This document shows, piece by piece, positions 2,667-30,427 of a stretch of DNA of 64,000 nucleotides. This DNA comes from Bacteroidota bacterium. GTDB taxonomy: Bacteria > Bacteroidota > Bacteroidia > B-17B0 > Aurantibacillaceae. The position numbers and the translations under genes were made by a program. Positions within the stretch are counted from its first letter, which is position 1, and each line of letters opens with the position of its first letter. The stretch covers positions 1 through 64,000 of the forward strand of contig JAFDYI010000022.1 in assembly GCA_018267475.1 (NCBI GenBank). Reading direction: 5' to 3'. The notes under the pieces are model-generated. The model searched no databases, was not told where the DNA came from, and saw only the letters and a program-made list of their open reading frames with translations.

Positions 2667-4184
2667 ATGTCGGAAAGTGTAATTGTATCAAAAGTGTGGA
2701 ATTTTGCCAACGTCCTTCGTGATGATGGCGTGGGTTATGGTGATTATTTGGAGCAAATTACCTATTTGCTCTTCCTTAAAATGGCAGATGAACTCAACAA
2801 ACCACCCTACAACAAAGGGCTAAAATTCCCTAAACTCAAAAATGCCCAAGGCGAAGAAAACCCCAAAGGCGAAACCTGCGACTGGCAAACCCTATCGCAA
2901 AAACGAGGCTTGGAATTAGAAACTTTTTACAACCAAATGCTACGCAGTTTGGGAAGCGAAAAAGGCACATTGGGGCAAATATTTGTAAAGAGCCAAAACA
3001 AAATTCAAGACCCTTCAAAACTCTTAAAAATCATGGATATGATTGACAAAGAGCAATGGAGTATGATGGGCACCGATATAAAAGGAAAAATCTACGAAGG
3101 ATTGTTGGAGAAAAATGCCGAAGACACCAAAAGCGGTGCAGGGCAATATTTTACACCACGTTCTTTAATCAAAACAATGATAGCTTGTCTTCGCCCCAAG
3201 CCAATGAAAACCATAATTGACCCGGCTTGTGGTACAGGTGGTTTCTTTTTGGCGGCTTATGATTTTATCAAAGCCCAAGACTTAGACCAAGAAGAAAAAG
3301 CCTTTTTGAAAAACGAAACTTTTCACGGAAACGAAATTGTTGCCAACACCCGCAGAATGTGTTTGATGAATATGTTTTTGCACAACATTGGCGAAATAGA
3401 TGGCGAGCCGCTGATTTCTTCGGCAGATGCGTTGGTATCAGACAATGGCAAACGCTACGATTATGTATTAGCCAATCCACCTTTTGGTAAAAAAAGCAGT
3501 ATGACCATTACCAACGAAGAAGGCAAACAAGAAAAGCAAGACTATATTATCAATCGCCAGGACTTTGTAGCAACCACAGCCAACAAACAACTGAACTTTA
3601 TGCAACACATAAAAACACTTTTAAAAGCGACTGGCGAAGCAGCCGTTGTACTTCCCGACAATGTTTTGTTTGAAGGTGGTGCAGGAGAAACGGTTCGTAA
3701 AGAGTTGATGAAAACAACAGAACTTCATACGATTTTACGACTGCCGACAGGCATTTTTTATGCACAGGGTGTAAAAGCAAATGTGTTGTTTTTCGACAAC
3801 AAACCAGCTTCCAAATCCCCTTGGACAAAAAACGTTTGGATATATGATTACCGCAGTAACATAAGCCATACCTTAAAGAAAAATCCTCTTACTTCTGAAG
3901 ATTTGAAAGACTTTGTAAAATGCTACAATCCCGAAAACCGAAACAAAAGAGTAGAAACGTGGAGTGAAGCAAACCCCGAAGGACGTTGGAGAAAATTCAG
4001 CTATGAAGAAATCATTGAAAGAGATAAAACCAATCTTGACATATTTTGGATTAAGGACGAGGGCCTAACCGACTTGGACAACTTGCCCGACCCTGATATT
4101 TTGGCAAATGAAATAATAGAAAACATTGAAGCAGGACTAAACAGTTTTAAAGAAATAATGGAAACCTTAAACGAAGACGAATAG
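2667..4184 (+). CDS. hsdM: Type I restriction-modification DNA methyltransferase subunit HsdM
   Basis: The 505-aa protein is the N6-adenine methyltransferase subunit that works as HsdM2S. The N-terminal helical domain has YLLFLKMADE. Then come GQYFTPRSLI, the AdoMet-binding motif I DPACGTGGF near residues 185-193, and the catalytic motif IV NPPFG near 270-274. All key motifs are present and the length is normal. Its start follows the rhuM stop by 1 bp. No hsdR is found downstream, because the next gene is an unrelated AraC/alkyltransferase gene. Restriction activity therefore depends on an hsdR outside the window (probably to the left) or is absent. Confidence 0.95.
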   Translation: MSESVIVSKVWNFANVLRDDGVGYGDYLEQITYLLFLKMADELNKPPYNKGLKFPKLKNAQGEENPKGETCDWQTLSQKRGLELETFYNQMLRSLGSEKGTLGQIFVKSQNKIQDPSKLLKIMDMIDKEQWSMMGTDIKGKIYEGLLEKNAEDTKSGAGQYFTPRSLIKTMIACLRPKPMKTIIDPACGTGGFFLAAYDFIKAQDLDQEEKAFLKNETFHGNEIVANTRRMCLMNMFLHNIGEIDGEPLISSADALVSDNGKRYDYVLANPPFGKKSSMTITNEEGKQEKQDYIINRQDFVATTANKQLNFMQHIKTLLKATGEAAVVLPDNVLFEGGAGETVRKELMKTTELHTILRLPTGIFYAQGVKANVLFFDNKPASKSPWTKNVWIYDYRSNISHTLKKNPLTSEDLKDFVKCYNPENRNKRVETWSEANPEGRWRKFSYEEIIERDKTNLDIFWIKDEGLTDLDNLPDPDILANEIIENIEAGLNSFKEIMETLNEDE

Positions 4185-5748: not shown

Positions 5749-6992
5749 TTTTTATAGATTATGTTTTTTGGATAGCAGATAAAATATTTTTTTACTGTTT
5801 TGGATAGCACTTCTACATTTAGTTGGTCTCCGGCCTCAGCAATATCAATAATCTTGCCGTTATTCATCAAGATGTTTATTTTTAAATTATTGGTTTTGTA
5901 GGCGCTGTTTTCTATTTGCCCTTGTACCACAAAAAAAGCAGCTTCTTTTTCGCTTATTTTATACTGTTTGGCGCAAGCGGTAATCCATTCTTTTTTTGAA
6001 GAAAGTTCGCTTTTTTCGCGCCGCAGCTCAATGCGAAACAGTTTTCTGTTTACCAAATTGGCACAAAGTGTGGCAAGAATAATATCGGGGTGCTGAGCCC
6101 ATACTTTTACCGAGGTAAAAATATCGTAATCATCTAGCAGGGCAAAACTTTTTAGCAACTCAGGGTTTTCTATAAAATCATCTTTAGAAAAATTGTTTTG
6201 TAAAAAAATACTGAGAGCAGGCGTAGCAAACAAAGGTGTTTTTTTTGATGCTAACTCTTTGGCACGTATTAAGATATTAACCAGCATGTTTTCGGCAGCT
6301 ACTACCGTTTTGTGCAAATACACTTGCCAGTACATCAGGCGGCGTGCTATAATAAATTTTTCGATGGAGTAAATGCCTTTTTCTTCTATTACCAATTCGT
6401 CGTTTTTTACATGTAGCATTTTTATGATGCGGTCGCTACTGATAATGCCCTCTGATACGCCGGTAAAAAAACTATCGCGGCGCAGGTAGTCCAGCCTATC
6501 CATATCCAACTGCGAGCTTACTAATTGGTGTAAAAACTTTTTTTTGTATTGATTATTAAAAATTTTAATAGCTAAGCTAAGCTTGCCTTGATATTGTTTA
6601 TTCAACTCTTGCATCAGCAAGGCAGAGATGTCTTCGTGGTTTACCCCTTGCACAATAGCGTATTCTAGGGCGTGAGAAAAAGGCCCATGCCCAATATCGT
6701 GTAACAAAATAGCAATAGTTACGGCCTGTGCCTCCTCGGGCGTAATGTCTATCTGTTTGGCTTGTAGTACTTTTAGCGCTTCGGTCATTAGGTGCATGGC
6801 GCCAATGGCGTGATGAAAGCGAGTGTGCAGGGCGCCCGGATACACCAAGTTGGTTAGCCCTAGTTGTTTTATTCTGCGTAAACGCTGAAAATAAGGGTGG
6901 TTTATTAGCTCGTAAATAAAATCATCGGGTAGGGTAACGAATCCGTAAATGGGGTCGTTAATGATTTTTCTTTTATTGGCTGAGTCGCGCAT
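5745..6992 (-). CDS. HD-domain phosphohydrolase (COG1078, dNTPase-like)
   Basis: This metal-dependent phosphohydrolase is related to dGTP triphosphohydrolases. From the chosen start it is 415 aa. DPIYGFVTLP opens the family, followed by the split metal site RFHHAIGAMHL and LLHDIGHGPFSHALE (the HD pair), then DMDRLDYLRRDSF. COG1078 members are thought to hydrolyse deoxynucleoside triphosphates, but the substrate is unproven. An ATG exists at 7022, but a TATCTTTG -7 box at 7001-7008 lies inside that extension. I therefore prefer the ATG at 6992, which leaves MRDSANKRKIINDP as the N-terminus. It is divergent from neuB and coupled to the downstream thioesterase. Confidence 0.9.
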   Translation of the reverse strand: MRDSANKRKIINDPIYGFVTLPDDFIYELINHPYFQRLRRIKQLGLTNLVYPGALHTRFHHAIGAMHLMTEALKVLQAKQIDITPEEAQAVTIAILLHDIGHGPFSHALEYAIVQGVNHEDISALLMQELNKQYQGKLSLAIKIFNNQYKKKFLHQLVSSQLDMDRLDYLRRDSFFTGVSEGIISSDRIIKMLHVKNDELVIEEKGIYSIEKFIIARRLMYWQVYLHKTVVAAENMLVNILIRAKELASKKTPLFATPALSIFLQNNFSKDDFIENPELLKSFALLDDYDIFTSVKVWAQHPDIILATLCANLVNRKLFRIELRREKSELSSKKEWITACAKQYKISEKEAAFFVVQGQIENSAYKTNNLKINILMNNGKIIDIAEAGDQLNVEVLSKTVKKYFICYPKNIIYKK

Positions 6993-27580: not shown

Positions 27581-28681
27581 TTAACTCAAAATTTTTAAAA
27601 TTTCTTGCACAATGGTATGGGCAGCGTGGGGTAGGGCCATTTTGGAAATGTTTTGTTTTAGTTGCTCTTGTTTTTTTTCATCAAACAGGAGTGCCAGGCT
27701 TTCCTTTATTAAAAGAGAAGAAGCATCGGCATCTTTTACCAGCAGAGCGGCTTGCTTGTTTACTAAAGCCATTGCGTTTTTTGTTTGATGGTCTTCGGCC
27801 ACATTAGGTGATGGTACCAGCACGCAAGGTTTTCCTACAATTTGCAATTCGGAAACAGAGCTGGCGCCTGCTCTGGAAATAACGACATCTGCTGCGGCAT
27901 AGGCAAGATCCATACGGGTAATAAAATCAAAAGCATAGATGTTTTTTTCTTGAAAGGCTTGCGTTTGTTGTTTTGCTATACTAATATATGTTTTTCCGGT
28001 TTGCCAAATAAGTTGTACTCCCTGGTCCGCTATGAGTTGTAAATTTTCTCCTACAGCCTCGTTTATGGTTTTGGCTCCTAAGCTGCCTCCAATAACTAAG
28101 ATGGTTTTTTGAGAAGGGTTCAAGTTAAAAAAACGCTGCGCTTCTTCTTTTTTTTGTGCTACGTGCTGTATGTCTTGCCGCACCGGGTTTCCGCTAAGGA
28201 TAATTTTGTCTTTTGGAAAAAAACGCTCCATGCCTTCATAGGCTACACAAATTTTTTGTACTTTTTTAGAAAGCATTTTGTTAGTAATGCCCGCGTATGA
28301 ATTTTGTTCTTGTATAAGGGCCGGTATTTTTTTGTAGCAAGCCATACGCAGTAAAGGCGCAGAAGCATAGCCTCCTGTACCTATCACAAGGTCGGGTTTA
28401 AAATCGTTTAGTATTTTTTTTGTTTGAAACAGGCTTCGCATCAATAAAAAGGGAAGTTTAAAGTTAGCTGTTGTTAATTTTCGTTGCAAGCCCGCAATAG
28501 GTACTCCTATTATTTTATATCCTGCTGCCGGTATTTTCTCCATTTCCATTTTTCCAAGCGCTCCTACAAACAAAATTTCTGCTTCCGGCATTTGTTTTTT
28601 TAGTTCGTTGGCAATAGCTACGGCCGGGAATATATGCCCCCCGGTACCGCCTCCGCTTAATATTACTTTTATATGTTTCAT
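27581..28681 (-). CDS. murG: MurG: lipid II-forming N-acetylglucosamine transferase
   Basis: MurG adds N-acetylglucosamine to lipid I on the inner face of the membrane, making lipid II for peptidoglycan. The 366-aa GT28 enzyme shows the glycine-rich acceptor loop SGGGTGGHIFPAVAIA at 9-24, GGYASAPLL, QEQNSYAGITNKML, VIGGSLGAKTINEAV and the UDP-sugar site ISRAGASSVSELQIVGKP. All are normal. It is separated from murC and ftsQ by about 7 kb and lies on the other strand. The palindrome-bounded ATPase gene lies immediately upstream. Confidence 0.97.
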   Translation of the reverse strand: MKHIKVILSGGGTGGHIFPAVAIANELKKQMPEAEILFVGALGKMEMEKIPAAGYKIIGVPIAGLQRKLTTANFKLPFLLMRSLFQTKKILNDFKPDLVIGTGGYASAPLLRMACYKKIPALIQEQNSYAGITNKMLSKKVQKICVAYEGMERFFPKDKIILSGNPVRQDIQHVAQKKEEAQRFFNLNPSQKTILVIGGSLGAKTINEAVGENLQLIADQGVQLIWQTGKTYISIAKQQTQAFQEKNIYAFDFITRMDLAYAAADVVISRAGASSVSELQIVGKPCVLVPSPNVAEDHQTKNAMALVNKQAALLVKDADASSLLIKESLALLFDEKKQEQLKQNISKMALPHAAHTIVQEILKILS

Positions 28682-28694
28682 GTTTTTATTTTAA

Positions 28695-28729
28695 TGTCCA
28701 TTTTCGGAATCAAATTCCGAAAATGGACA
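28695..28729. repeat. 35-bp perfect palindrome, left copy
   Basis: TGTCCATTTTCGGAAT (28695-28710), loop CAA, then ATTCCGAAAATGGACA (28714-28729) form a perfect 16-bp stem. It is identical to 29912-29946 except for two loop bases, and both copies are followed by GTT. It lies between the murG start and the ATPase stop. Confidence 0.97.
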
Positions 28730-28739
28730 GTTATTATTT

Positions 28740-29891
28740 TTAAATAAAATCCAACCAAGACTCTATATCTCCTTTATGTGAAAAATTTTTTGACTGCTTT
28801 CCTCCATAAATAATTTTTGTTTTTATTTTTTTTTCTTGTAATGAATTGTAAAAAAGTAAGTTTTTAAAATCGTCTTTCCCTACCGTTTCTCCACTTTTAA
28901 ATTCGTAAGCAAAAAGACCTTTTTCGTTTTCAGAAAGCAGGTCTATCTCATGGCCTGTTTTATCTCTCCAGTAAAAAAGTTGCTCGCGTGTATTTAAATT
29001 AAAGGCTGTTTTTCTTTTTTCTACTACCAATAAATTCTCAAATAGCTGTCCGCGCATTCTATCATACAAAAGTTTATCAGCGTTATATATACCCATTAAA
29101 TAGCAAGCCAATCCGGTATCGTAAAAGTATAATTTAGGCGATTTAATAATCCGTTTGTTCAAATTATTAAAGTGCGGAGGCAGCAGGAATATGATGTAAC
29201 TGCTTTGTAGTACCGCCAACCAAGAAGCAGCTGTTTTTTGGTCAATATCGCATAGGTTAGCTAATTCATTGGTGTTTAATATAGCCCCTACATACGAAGC
29301 GCATAAACGTAAAAACTTAGTGAATGTGCCTAAATTGTTAATGGATTTTAGCTGGCGTACATCGCGCTCTAAATAGGTGGAAGTGTAGTTTTCATACCAA
29401 TCAGATGGGTTTATTTTTCTATGAATAATTTCCGGATAAAAGCCTTGATACAGATGTTTTTTATAGTCTGTTTTTAGCAATTTGTTTTCCCGCAATTCTT
29501 TTAATGACAAAGGGAGCAAATGCAAATAACCTACTCTGCCCGCCAAACTTTGTGTAATGTTTTCTTGTAGTAGAAAATTATTTGAGCCTGTTAAAATAAA
29601 TTGCCCCGCTTTATTGTTATTATCTACAACCTCTTGTAAGTATGAAAATAATTCGGGTAATTTTTGTGCTTCGTCAATAATAGCCCCTTGTTTTAGATTG
29701 CGTAAAAAACCTTTTATGTCGCTTTTTATATACTCTCTGTCATCTATGTTTTCAATATTGAAATATGGTTTTTTAGAAAACACCTCTTTTACAAGTGTTG
29801 TTTTCCCTGATTGGCGCGGCCCTGTAACGGCCAGCACTCTAAATTGCCTGGATAGTTTTTTTAGTCGTAGTATAGAATCTCTTCTTATCAC
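28740..29891 (-). CDS. AAA-family ATPase with DUF4143 domain (COG1373)
   Basis: The 383-aa protein has Walker A GPRQSGKTTL near residue 24, Walker B AIIDEAQKLPELF near 70, and sensor-1-like QFILTGSNNFLL. A winged-helix middle part follows, then the DUF4143 C-terminus with FYWRDKTGHEIDLL and AYEFKSG, which resembles a PD-(D/E)xK nuclease core. The family is common and of uncertain role. I prefer the GTG at 29891, which gives the family-typical MIRRD start and lies 4 nt after a TACATTTG promoter box. An ATG at 29918 lies within the right-hand palindrome. The gene is exactly bounded by two copies of a 35-bp palindrome and separates dut from murG, so it looks inserted. Confidence 0.9.
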   Translation of the reverse strand: MIRRDSILRLKKLSRQFRVLAVTGPRQSGKTTLVKEVFSKKPYFNIENIDDREYIKSDIKGFLRNLKQGAIIDEAQKLPELFSYLQEVVDNNNKAGQFILTGSNNFLLQENITQSLAGRVGYLHLLPLSLKELRENKLLKTDYKKHLYQGFYPEIIHRKINPSDWYENYTSTYLERDVRQLKSINNLGTFTKFLRLCASYVGAILNTNELANLCDIDQKTAASWLAVLQSSYIIFLLPPHFNNLNKRIIKSPKLYFYDTGLACYLMGIYNADKLLYDRMRGQLFENLLVVEKRKTAFNLNTREQLFYWRDKTGHEIDLLSENEKGLFAYEFKSGETVGKDDFKNLLFYNSLQEKKIKTKIIYGGKQSKNFSHKGDIESWLDFI

Positions 29892-29895
29892 AGCG

Positions 29896-29903
29896 CAAAT
29901 GTA
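29896..29903 (-). promoter_or_regulatory. Putative -7 box of the ATPase gene
   Basis: TACATTTG on the minus strand, 4 nt before the GTG at 29891 and just inside the right palindrome. It would give a leaderless or nearly leaderless mRNA starting at GTG. Confidence 0.45.
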
Positions 29904-29911
29904 TATATATT

Positions 29912-29946
29912 TGTCCATTTTCGGAATTTAATTCCGAAAATGGACA
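29912..29946. repeat. 35-bp perfect palindrome, right copy
   Basis: Stem arms 29912-29927 and 29931-29946 are the same 16-bp sequences as in the left copy, with loop TTA. The in-frame ATG at 29918 of the ATPase frame is part of it. Confidence 0.97.
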
Positions 29947-29992
29947 GTTTAAGTTTAGTAAAAAATTGATTATCAATATAATAAAATTACAC

Positions 29993-30427
29993 CTATTTTC
30001 CGGTGCTCCCAAAACCTTCTGAGCCACGAGCTGACTCATCAAGTGTTTCTACAAGATGCCATTCTGTAACTTGGTGTTGTGCTACTACCATTTGCGCTAT
30101 GCGTTCGCCATCGTTAATAACAAAGCTTTCATTTGAAAGGTTGATAAGCAGTACTTTTATTTCTCCTCTGTAGTCGGCATCAATGGTTCCGGGGCTATTT
30201 AGCACAGTGATACCATTTTTAAAAGCTAGGCCGCTTCTCGGGCGAATTTGCGCTTCATATCCTTTGGGTAGTTCTATAAATAAGCCCGTAGGTATTAGAG
30301 CGCGCTGCATAGGTTGCAAGGTGATGGAGCTGTTGAGTTCGGCACGCAAATCCATACCGGCACTTAAAGCGGTAGCATAATGTGGTAATGGGTGTTTACT
30401 TTTGTTAATTATTTTAATAGGCAACAT
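29993..30427 (-). CDS. dut: dUTP diphosphatase
   Basis: Dut hydrolyses dUTP to dUMP and pyrophosphate, keeping uracil out of DNA and feeding dTMP synthesis. The 144-aa trimeric enzyme shows all five motifs: AGMDLRAE (I), [10 protein letters not shown] (II), [13 protein letters not shown] with its catalytic Asp (III), GERIAQMVV (IV) and [10 protein letters not shown] (V) at the very C-terminus. Its start overlaps the stop of the flippase gene by 14 bp, so the two are coupled. Confidence 0.97.

Follow-up and report, generated by a model that had tools for sequence, protein, structure and literature searches.

A DUF4143 ATPase gene between matched palindromes as a candidate mobile element of Bacteroidota

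Why should a single ATPase gene stand between two nearly identical perfect palindromes? This question is raised by a locus in a 64,000-nucleotide stretch of a Bacteroidota genome (assembly GCA_018267475.1, contig JAFDYI010000022.1, positions 1 to 64,000; hereafter the window), where just one gene, a member of the DUF4143 family at 28740-29918 on the reverse strand, is enclosed by palindromes at 28695-28729 and 29912-29946, neither of which is assigned to a strand. As a preliminary description of the sequence had it, both are perfect, 35 bp long and share an identical 16-bp arm with a 3-base loop differing in two bases: TGTCCATTTTCGGAAT-CAA-ATTCCGAAAATGGACA at the 3' end of the element, 13 bp ahead of the murG start, and TGTCCATTTTCGGAAT-TTA-ATTCCGAAAATGGACA at its 5' end, at the expected -33 region of the ATPase gene. 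GTT continues beyond both, and the 5' copy could equally be divided into two 17-bp arms around a loop of 1 nt. Folding of either palindrome as single-stranded DNA yields around -17 kcal/mol (z around -8). Exact copies of the arm TGTCCATTTTCGGAAT number four in the 2.76-Mb genome, all within these two palindromes, and inexact sites with 2-3 mismatches are no commoner there than with a reversed control pattern. We therefore rejected the idea of a dispersed repeat, which the preliminary description had named as a finding that would speak against its own proposal of a mobile or selfish unit. Instead, we consider it reasonably probable that the 1,252 bp from palindrome to palindrome (28695-29946, reverse strand) constitute a selfish element of 1.25 kb, mobilized by a protein of its own that binds to the palindromes at its ends.

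That the palindromes terminate a unit is supported most strongly by homologous elements at different loci, for which we determined the limits of DNA homology relative to the outer palindrome edges in a survey of 87 genomes of the family, one per species (genomes are labeled G and loci L below). For most close pairs, homology starts and stops 0-5 bp from these edges, with limits at +0/+1 and +4/+5 for L013/L014, at -1 and -1/+1 for L024/L027, at -1 and +1 for L028/L249, and within 3 bp for L025/L029, L026/L029, and L244/L250. Pairs with L030 break on one side 16-18 bp inside the longer match of L030, more distant pairs break inside the gene, and flanks are shared where the site is the same (L024/L029, L031/L032, and one flank of L026/L027). 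The unit is also of rather constant size, mostly 1,229-1,295 bp among the 26 dual-palindrome relatives measured.

Matched ends are a recurrent property of these loci. When the sequences on the two sides of each DUF4143 gene, upstream and downstream, were compared to each other, 41 of 169 loci reached the threshold score of 18, compared to a mean of 9.1 and a maximum of 14.5 for 150 cross-locus pairs used as null. Around 29 distinct palindromic pairs are found among these 41 loci, comprising the window locus and about 28 others in related Bacteroidota that bear out the expectation of palindromes flanking other DUF4143 genes, and the remainder either duplicate a site already counted or are direct repeats of another kind. 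Pair sequences vary by element type (GGAAT..ATTCC, ACCTTGAAATATTCAAAT, ACCGTGAAAAT, AATGACCG, and others), and left matches right within each element. The genome G048 alone harbors at least six elements, each with a different palindrome pair (L013 and L249-L253), and no near-identical element copies were found inside any one genome. The arms of sister elements show some compensatory changes that are few and were not used as main evidence. An upstream TTGATWATCAA motif, exact in 4 of 28 dual elements and in none of two control windows, was rejected as too weak.

The palindromes bound a unit that sits at varied positions from genome to genome and that sister species lack at the corresponding positions. 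Relatives of the window gene were found in 42 of the 87 genomes with up to 13 per genome; the window gene itself is the sole DUF4143 gene of its genome and is absent from all six congeneric genomes searched, three of which are at least 92% complete, so that the ATPase is not a fixture of this locus. G086, G077, and G070 carry the L032 element, and its site is empty in eleven sister species in which the same flanking genes are joined by around 110-230 bp. The L014 element is absent from G031 and G013 with both flanks aligning (further species align on one flank only), and the L026/L027 element is absent from G068, G072, G071, G083, and G074, where no more than a few bases separate the flanking genes and left-flank identity reaches 91% (95% in G075, with a differing gene order beyond). 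No element-type palindrome was found in the empty stretches of these three sites, where the only two strong palindromes are terminator-like, which argues that the palindromes arrive together with the gene. The L032 element further contains a repeat of around 180 bp between gene and 3' palindrome (query positions 1977-2161), a separate family resembling miniature inverted-repeat transposable elements with many copies of around 90% identity in G086 and G073.

The element also decays in place, and its two ends stay alike while diverging from the ends of other elements. G004 carries a stop-riddled pseudogene with a palindrome, and a remnant in G028 (contig C150) consists of the last 20 codons of the gene abutting a palindrome identical to one of L014. 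Solo palindromes were found in G056 (contig C52) and, in another genus, just upstream of murG in G020; none was seen at the other murG loci inspected. In being a compact unit with defined ends, varied loci, and empty sites, the element resembles an insertion sequence in the broad sense. Of the preliminary proposal, which also named an operator or a cruciform as possible roles of the palindromes, the mobile unit with palindromes as ends is therefore supported by the homology stops, the recurrent matched pairs, and the three empty sites.

What kind of protein could move such a unit? The product of the open reading frame at 28740-29918 (reverse strand; 392 aa counted from the ATG inside the palindrome) matches DUF4143 (1e-44) and AAA_14 (6e-29) of Pfam, with scores of 152.4 and 101 bits for the two domains over cut-offs of 28.1 and 27, and belongs to COG1373 (DUF4143 / AAA_14 ATPases). 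The domain search of this protein returned only AAA-type/P-loop and DUF domains and no known transposase of the DDE, HUH, serine, or tyrosine type, and a sequence search of solved structures gave mostly generic P-loop matches. In its predicted structure (mean pLDDT 92.7), an AAA core is followed by a helical/winged-helix middle region and, at the C-terminus, by a domain resembling a nuclease. Searches with the fold of the whole protein retrieve AAA+/winged-helix ATPases, the best being 2qen from Pyrococcus (TM-score 0.49), and the C-terminal domain modeled alone (pLDDT 94.4) is nearest in fold to Hjc Holliday-junction resolvases and Can2, at weak E-values (0.03) with probabilities of 0.96-0.99. 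The Walker A motif GPRQSGKT (residues 33-40; 29799-29822, reverse strand) is near-invariant in 75 sequences. Conserved residues and fold identify residues 289-392 (28743-29054, reverse strand) as a PD-(D/E)XK nuclease domain with E294, D326, and E339-x-K341; this E / D / E-x-K set is near-invariant in 75 and 32 sequences, with AAA/Walker motifs conserved alongside. By these predictions, the window protein would combine an AAA+ ATPase with a winged-helix region for DNA binding and a nuclease of the PD-(D/E)XK type.

These parts suggest how mobility might work, and we infer from them that the protein recognizes and cuts the palindromes. Its winged helix would bind the palindrome as a dimer, and binding at the 5' copy, which overlaps the gene's own promoter, would result in autorepression. 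Such repression is frequent in transposons with a promoter overlapped by one end. The protein may then pair both ends in an ATP-dependent manner, and its nuclease, with a fold nearest to Holliday-junction resolvases, could cut the palindromes, which may be extruded as cruciforms, and thereby excise the unit or copy it into intergenic DNA rich in AT. Recognition might be limited to an element's own end sequence, with divergent ends preventing cross-mobilization, which would explain how several elements can coexist in a genome without amplification and fits the lack of near-identical intragenomic copies.

Several observations weigh against a mobile unit of this kind. The junctions at empty sites are not base-precise, with around 20-120 bp of unalignable AT-rich DNA beside an end, and the three empty sites alone do not exclude loss. 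Neither movement between strains nor near-identical copies inside one genome were seen, which leaves current activity unproven. One of the two palindromes is imperfect in several elements (L024, L026, and L027), the second palindrome is usually missing outside Bacteroidota, and the nuclease fold match is weak by E-value (0.03, probability 0.96). No evident repeat that would mark a target-site duplication lies outside the element ends, in data made coarse by the unalignable DNA beside them.

The alternative that survives best would make the palindromes purely regulatory, the 5' copy being an autoregulatory operator and the 3' copy an insulator or transcript-end hairpin of a gene spread by ordinary horizontal transfer. 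Across many phyla, a palindrome scoring at least 11 within 130 bp upstream of the gene was found for 29 of 101 relatives compared to 3 of 605 control flank windows (p = 2e-23), and strong downstream palindromes were seen in only 4 of 97; the upstream palindrome therefore appears to predate the two-ended form and to be more widely distributed, the two-ended form being seen mainly in Bacteroidota. Both the position directly upstream of the gene across phyla and the missing 3' copy in most non-Bacteroidota members speak for regulation, as does the spacing in most two-ended elements, where the upstream palindrome lies 0-9 bp ahead of a TAnnTTTG box and the start codon four bases past this box, so that the gene is apparently leaderless with a promoter overlapping the element end. 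In the window, the Bacteroidota-type -7 box TACATTTG (29896-29903, reverse strand) is 8 bp away from the palindrome, with a GTG at 29891 four bases after it, and box, spacing, and start recur in most relatives. The ATG within the right palindrome pointed out in the preliminary description is indeed in frame with the ATPase but probably not its start codon: The box-to-start spacing and the disorder of residues 1-8 in the structural model favor the GTG, giving a probable coding sequence of 383 aa at 28740-29891 (reverse strand; VIRRDSILRLKKL...). Yet a hairpin role would not require the 3' sequence to be identical to the operator, as it is, homology stops at both palindromes, and autorepression would equally be predicted for a transposon with an end overlapping its promoter, which places part of the regulatory reading within that of the selfish mobile unit. 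We therefore judge a regulatory role alone to be unlikely.

A second alternative views the gene as an antiviral defence system of one gene, carried along as passenger DNA, with the palindromes as self-recognition or control sites. The window protein matches the PADLOC profile PDC-S01 (E = 1.7e-97), which ranks as the fourth commonest defence across prokaryotes in a survey noting that experimental validation is pending for most such candidates (PMC12988326), and which is the most frequent single locus in rumen genomes (PMC13356809). Some relatives also lie beside CRISPR genes, as the DUF4143 genes near CRISPR-associated genes in Runella (L294, pSP2_2) and Thermus (L298, pTHTHE1601), a neighborhood that may have contributed to the scoring of the family as a candidate for defence. 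However, passenger status predicts neither element-specific matched ends nor precise homology breaks, and relatives occur in only 8 of 50,697 phage records, all of them unannotated faecal contigs, which also gives phages little part as carriers. Defence and mobility are not mutually exclusive, and we regard defence as the sole explanation as quite unlikely.

It is very improbable that unrelated palindromic repeats, such as repetitive extragenic palindromes (REPs), flank the gene by chance. Such families do occur in bacterial genomes and a few solo palindromes exist, but the window arm has no other exact copy in its genome, the sequences are element-specific with six different pairs in one genome, and most full-length matches to the palindrome cores in the 87 genomes are element ends or remnants.

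Is a palindrome-ended selfish unit of this kind already known? The closest resemblance in layout is to REP-associated tyrosine transposases (RAYTs), whose genes are described as always flanked by two REPs and for which no homologues were found in other major bacterial lineages (PMC2817692). The window element likewise has a single gene between two mutually related palindromes, with no near-identical gene copies within a genome. However, the RAYT enzyme is a Y1 HUH transposase, which the AAA+/PD-(D/E)XK protein is not, REPs usually number more than 100 copies per genome whereas the window genome (G000) contains only two undispersed palindromes, and DUF4143 relatives are found in many phyla. IS200/IS605 elements are described as very small elements whose enzyme recognizes hairpin-forming end sequences (PMC6006769). 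The element studied here is similarly small with hairpin-forming ends, but its enzyme chemistry is different and its palindromes are the ends themselves, whereas the hairpins of IS200/IS605 are subterminal. Tn7-type machinery includes TnsA, a PD-(D/E)XK-like nuclease, and the AAA+ protein TnsC. It thus unites both activities in one transposition machine, but here they are fused in one protein with neither a DDE transposase nor Tn7-like ends. The archaeal Walker-type ATPase PABY2304 (2qen) is the best whole-protein fold match and shares the AAA+ and winged-helix parts, but only at a TM-score of 0.49, and its structure record describes no ends or mobility. A homing endonuclease element was rejected, as the insertions lie between genes and the empty sites hold no such palindrome. 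PDC-S01 (COG1373 / DUF4143 ATP-binding proteins) is the same protein family by profile but has so far been described as a phage-defence candidate, and we found no description of palindromic ends or element-like behavior.

No earlier description of palindrome-ended DUF4143 elements was found in the literature searched, a scope that left out most subscription journals, and together with the lack of a known transposase domain this suggests, from sequence comparison, that the unit may be a new kind of element. Whether it represents a new class of autonomous mobile elements in many phyla, built from an AAA+/winged-helix/PD-(D/E)XK protein acting on element-specific, palindromic (cruciform-forming) ends, appears to us evenly balanced. 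DUF4143 ATPases are among the most widespread uncharacterized prokaryotic genes, and under the name PDC-S01 tens of thousands of them are listed as a defence system whose function is untested (PMC12988326, PMC13356809). Should the family, or only the branch with palindromic ends, prove to be a class of mobile elements that has a nuclease-ATPase for its sole enzyme, these counts would need rereading. Much of PDC-S01 would then be selfish DNA or defence genes riding their own mobility system, and each unit would offer a compact, sequence-specific pair of enzyme and DNA end. The function of DUF4143 becomes directly testable because the presumed substrate lies beside each protein.

The window element has murG (27581-28681, reverse strand) on one side and dut (29993-30427, reverse strand) on the other, and domain search and gene positions agree with the placement of one DUF4143 gene between them given in the preliminary description. 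Apart from this locus (27581-30427), dut and murG are not adjacent in relatives, where they lie on separate contigs or at separate places, and the congener G061 has two murG-like matches. The solo palindrome of G020 (L285, G020:C47:84500-92500, palindrome 6015-6059) is of the window type, lies directly upstream of murG, and adjoins an inserted 427-aa gene between ftsW and murG; it marks the same site as the window element and is possibly a scar.

Other arrangements were seen among relatives. One more distant DUF4143 subfamily (L033-L036, L038, and L039) has tandem arrays of TTGACAATATT-like inverted repeats upstream that replace the single palindrome, and a viral contig (L175, around 3001-3984) carries a DUF4143 gene between two 87-bp direct repeats resembling integron attC sites. 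Plasmids of Moraxella bovis (L293, L300, L301, and L302) share the gene and its 5' palindrome in two different backbones at around 96% identity, next to a recombinase gene that is apparently truncated in one backbone; we rejected this pair as proof of palindrome-bounded movement because the shared block includes the 3' part of the recombinase and lacks a 3' palindrome. In Coxiellaceae (L140 and L116), the DUF4143 gene lies between rsmD and gyrB, and L140 carries a duplication of the final 116 bp from the rsmD region (1968-2083 and 2828-2942), the second copy abutting the palindrome, as if the unit had carried along the end of its neighbor's gene.
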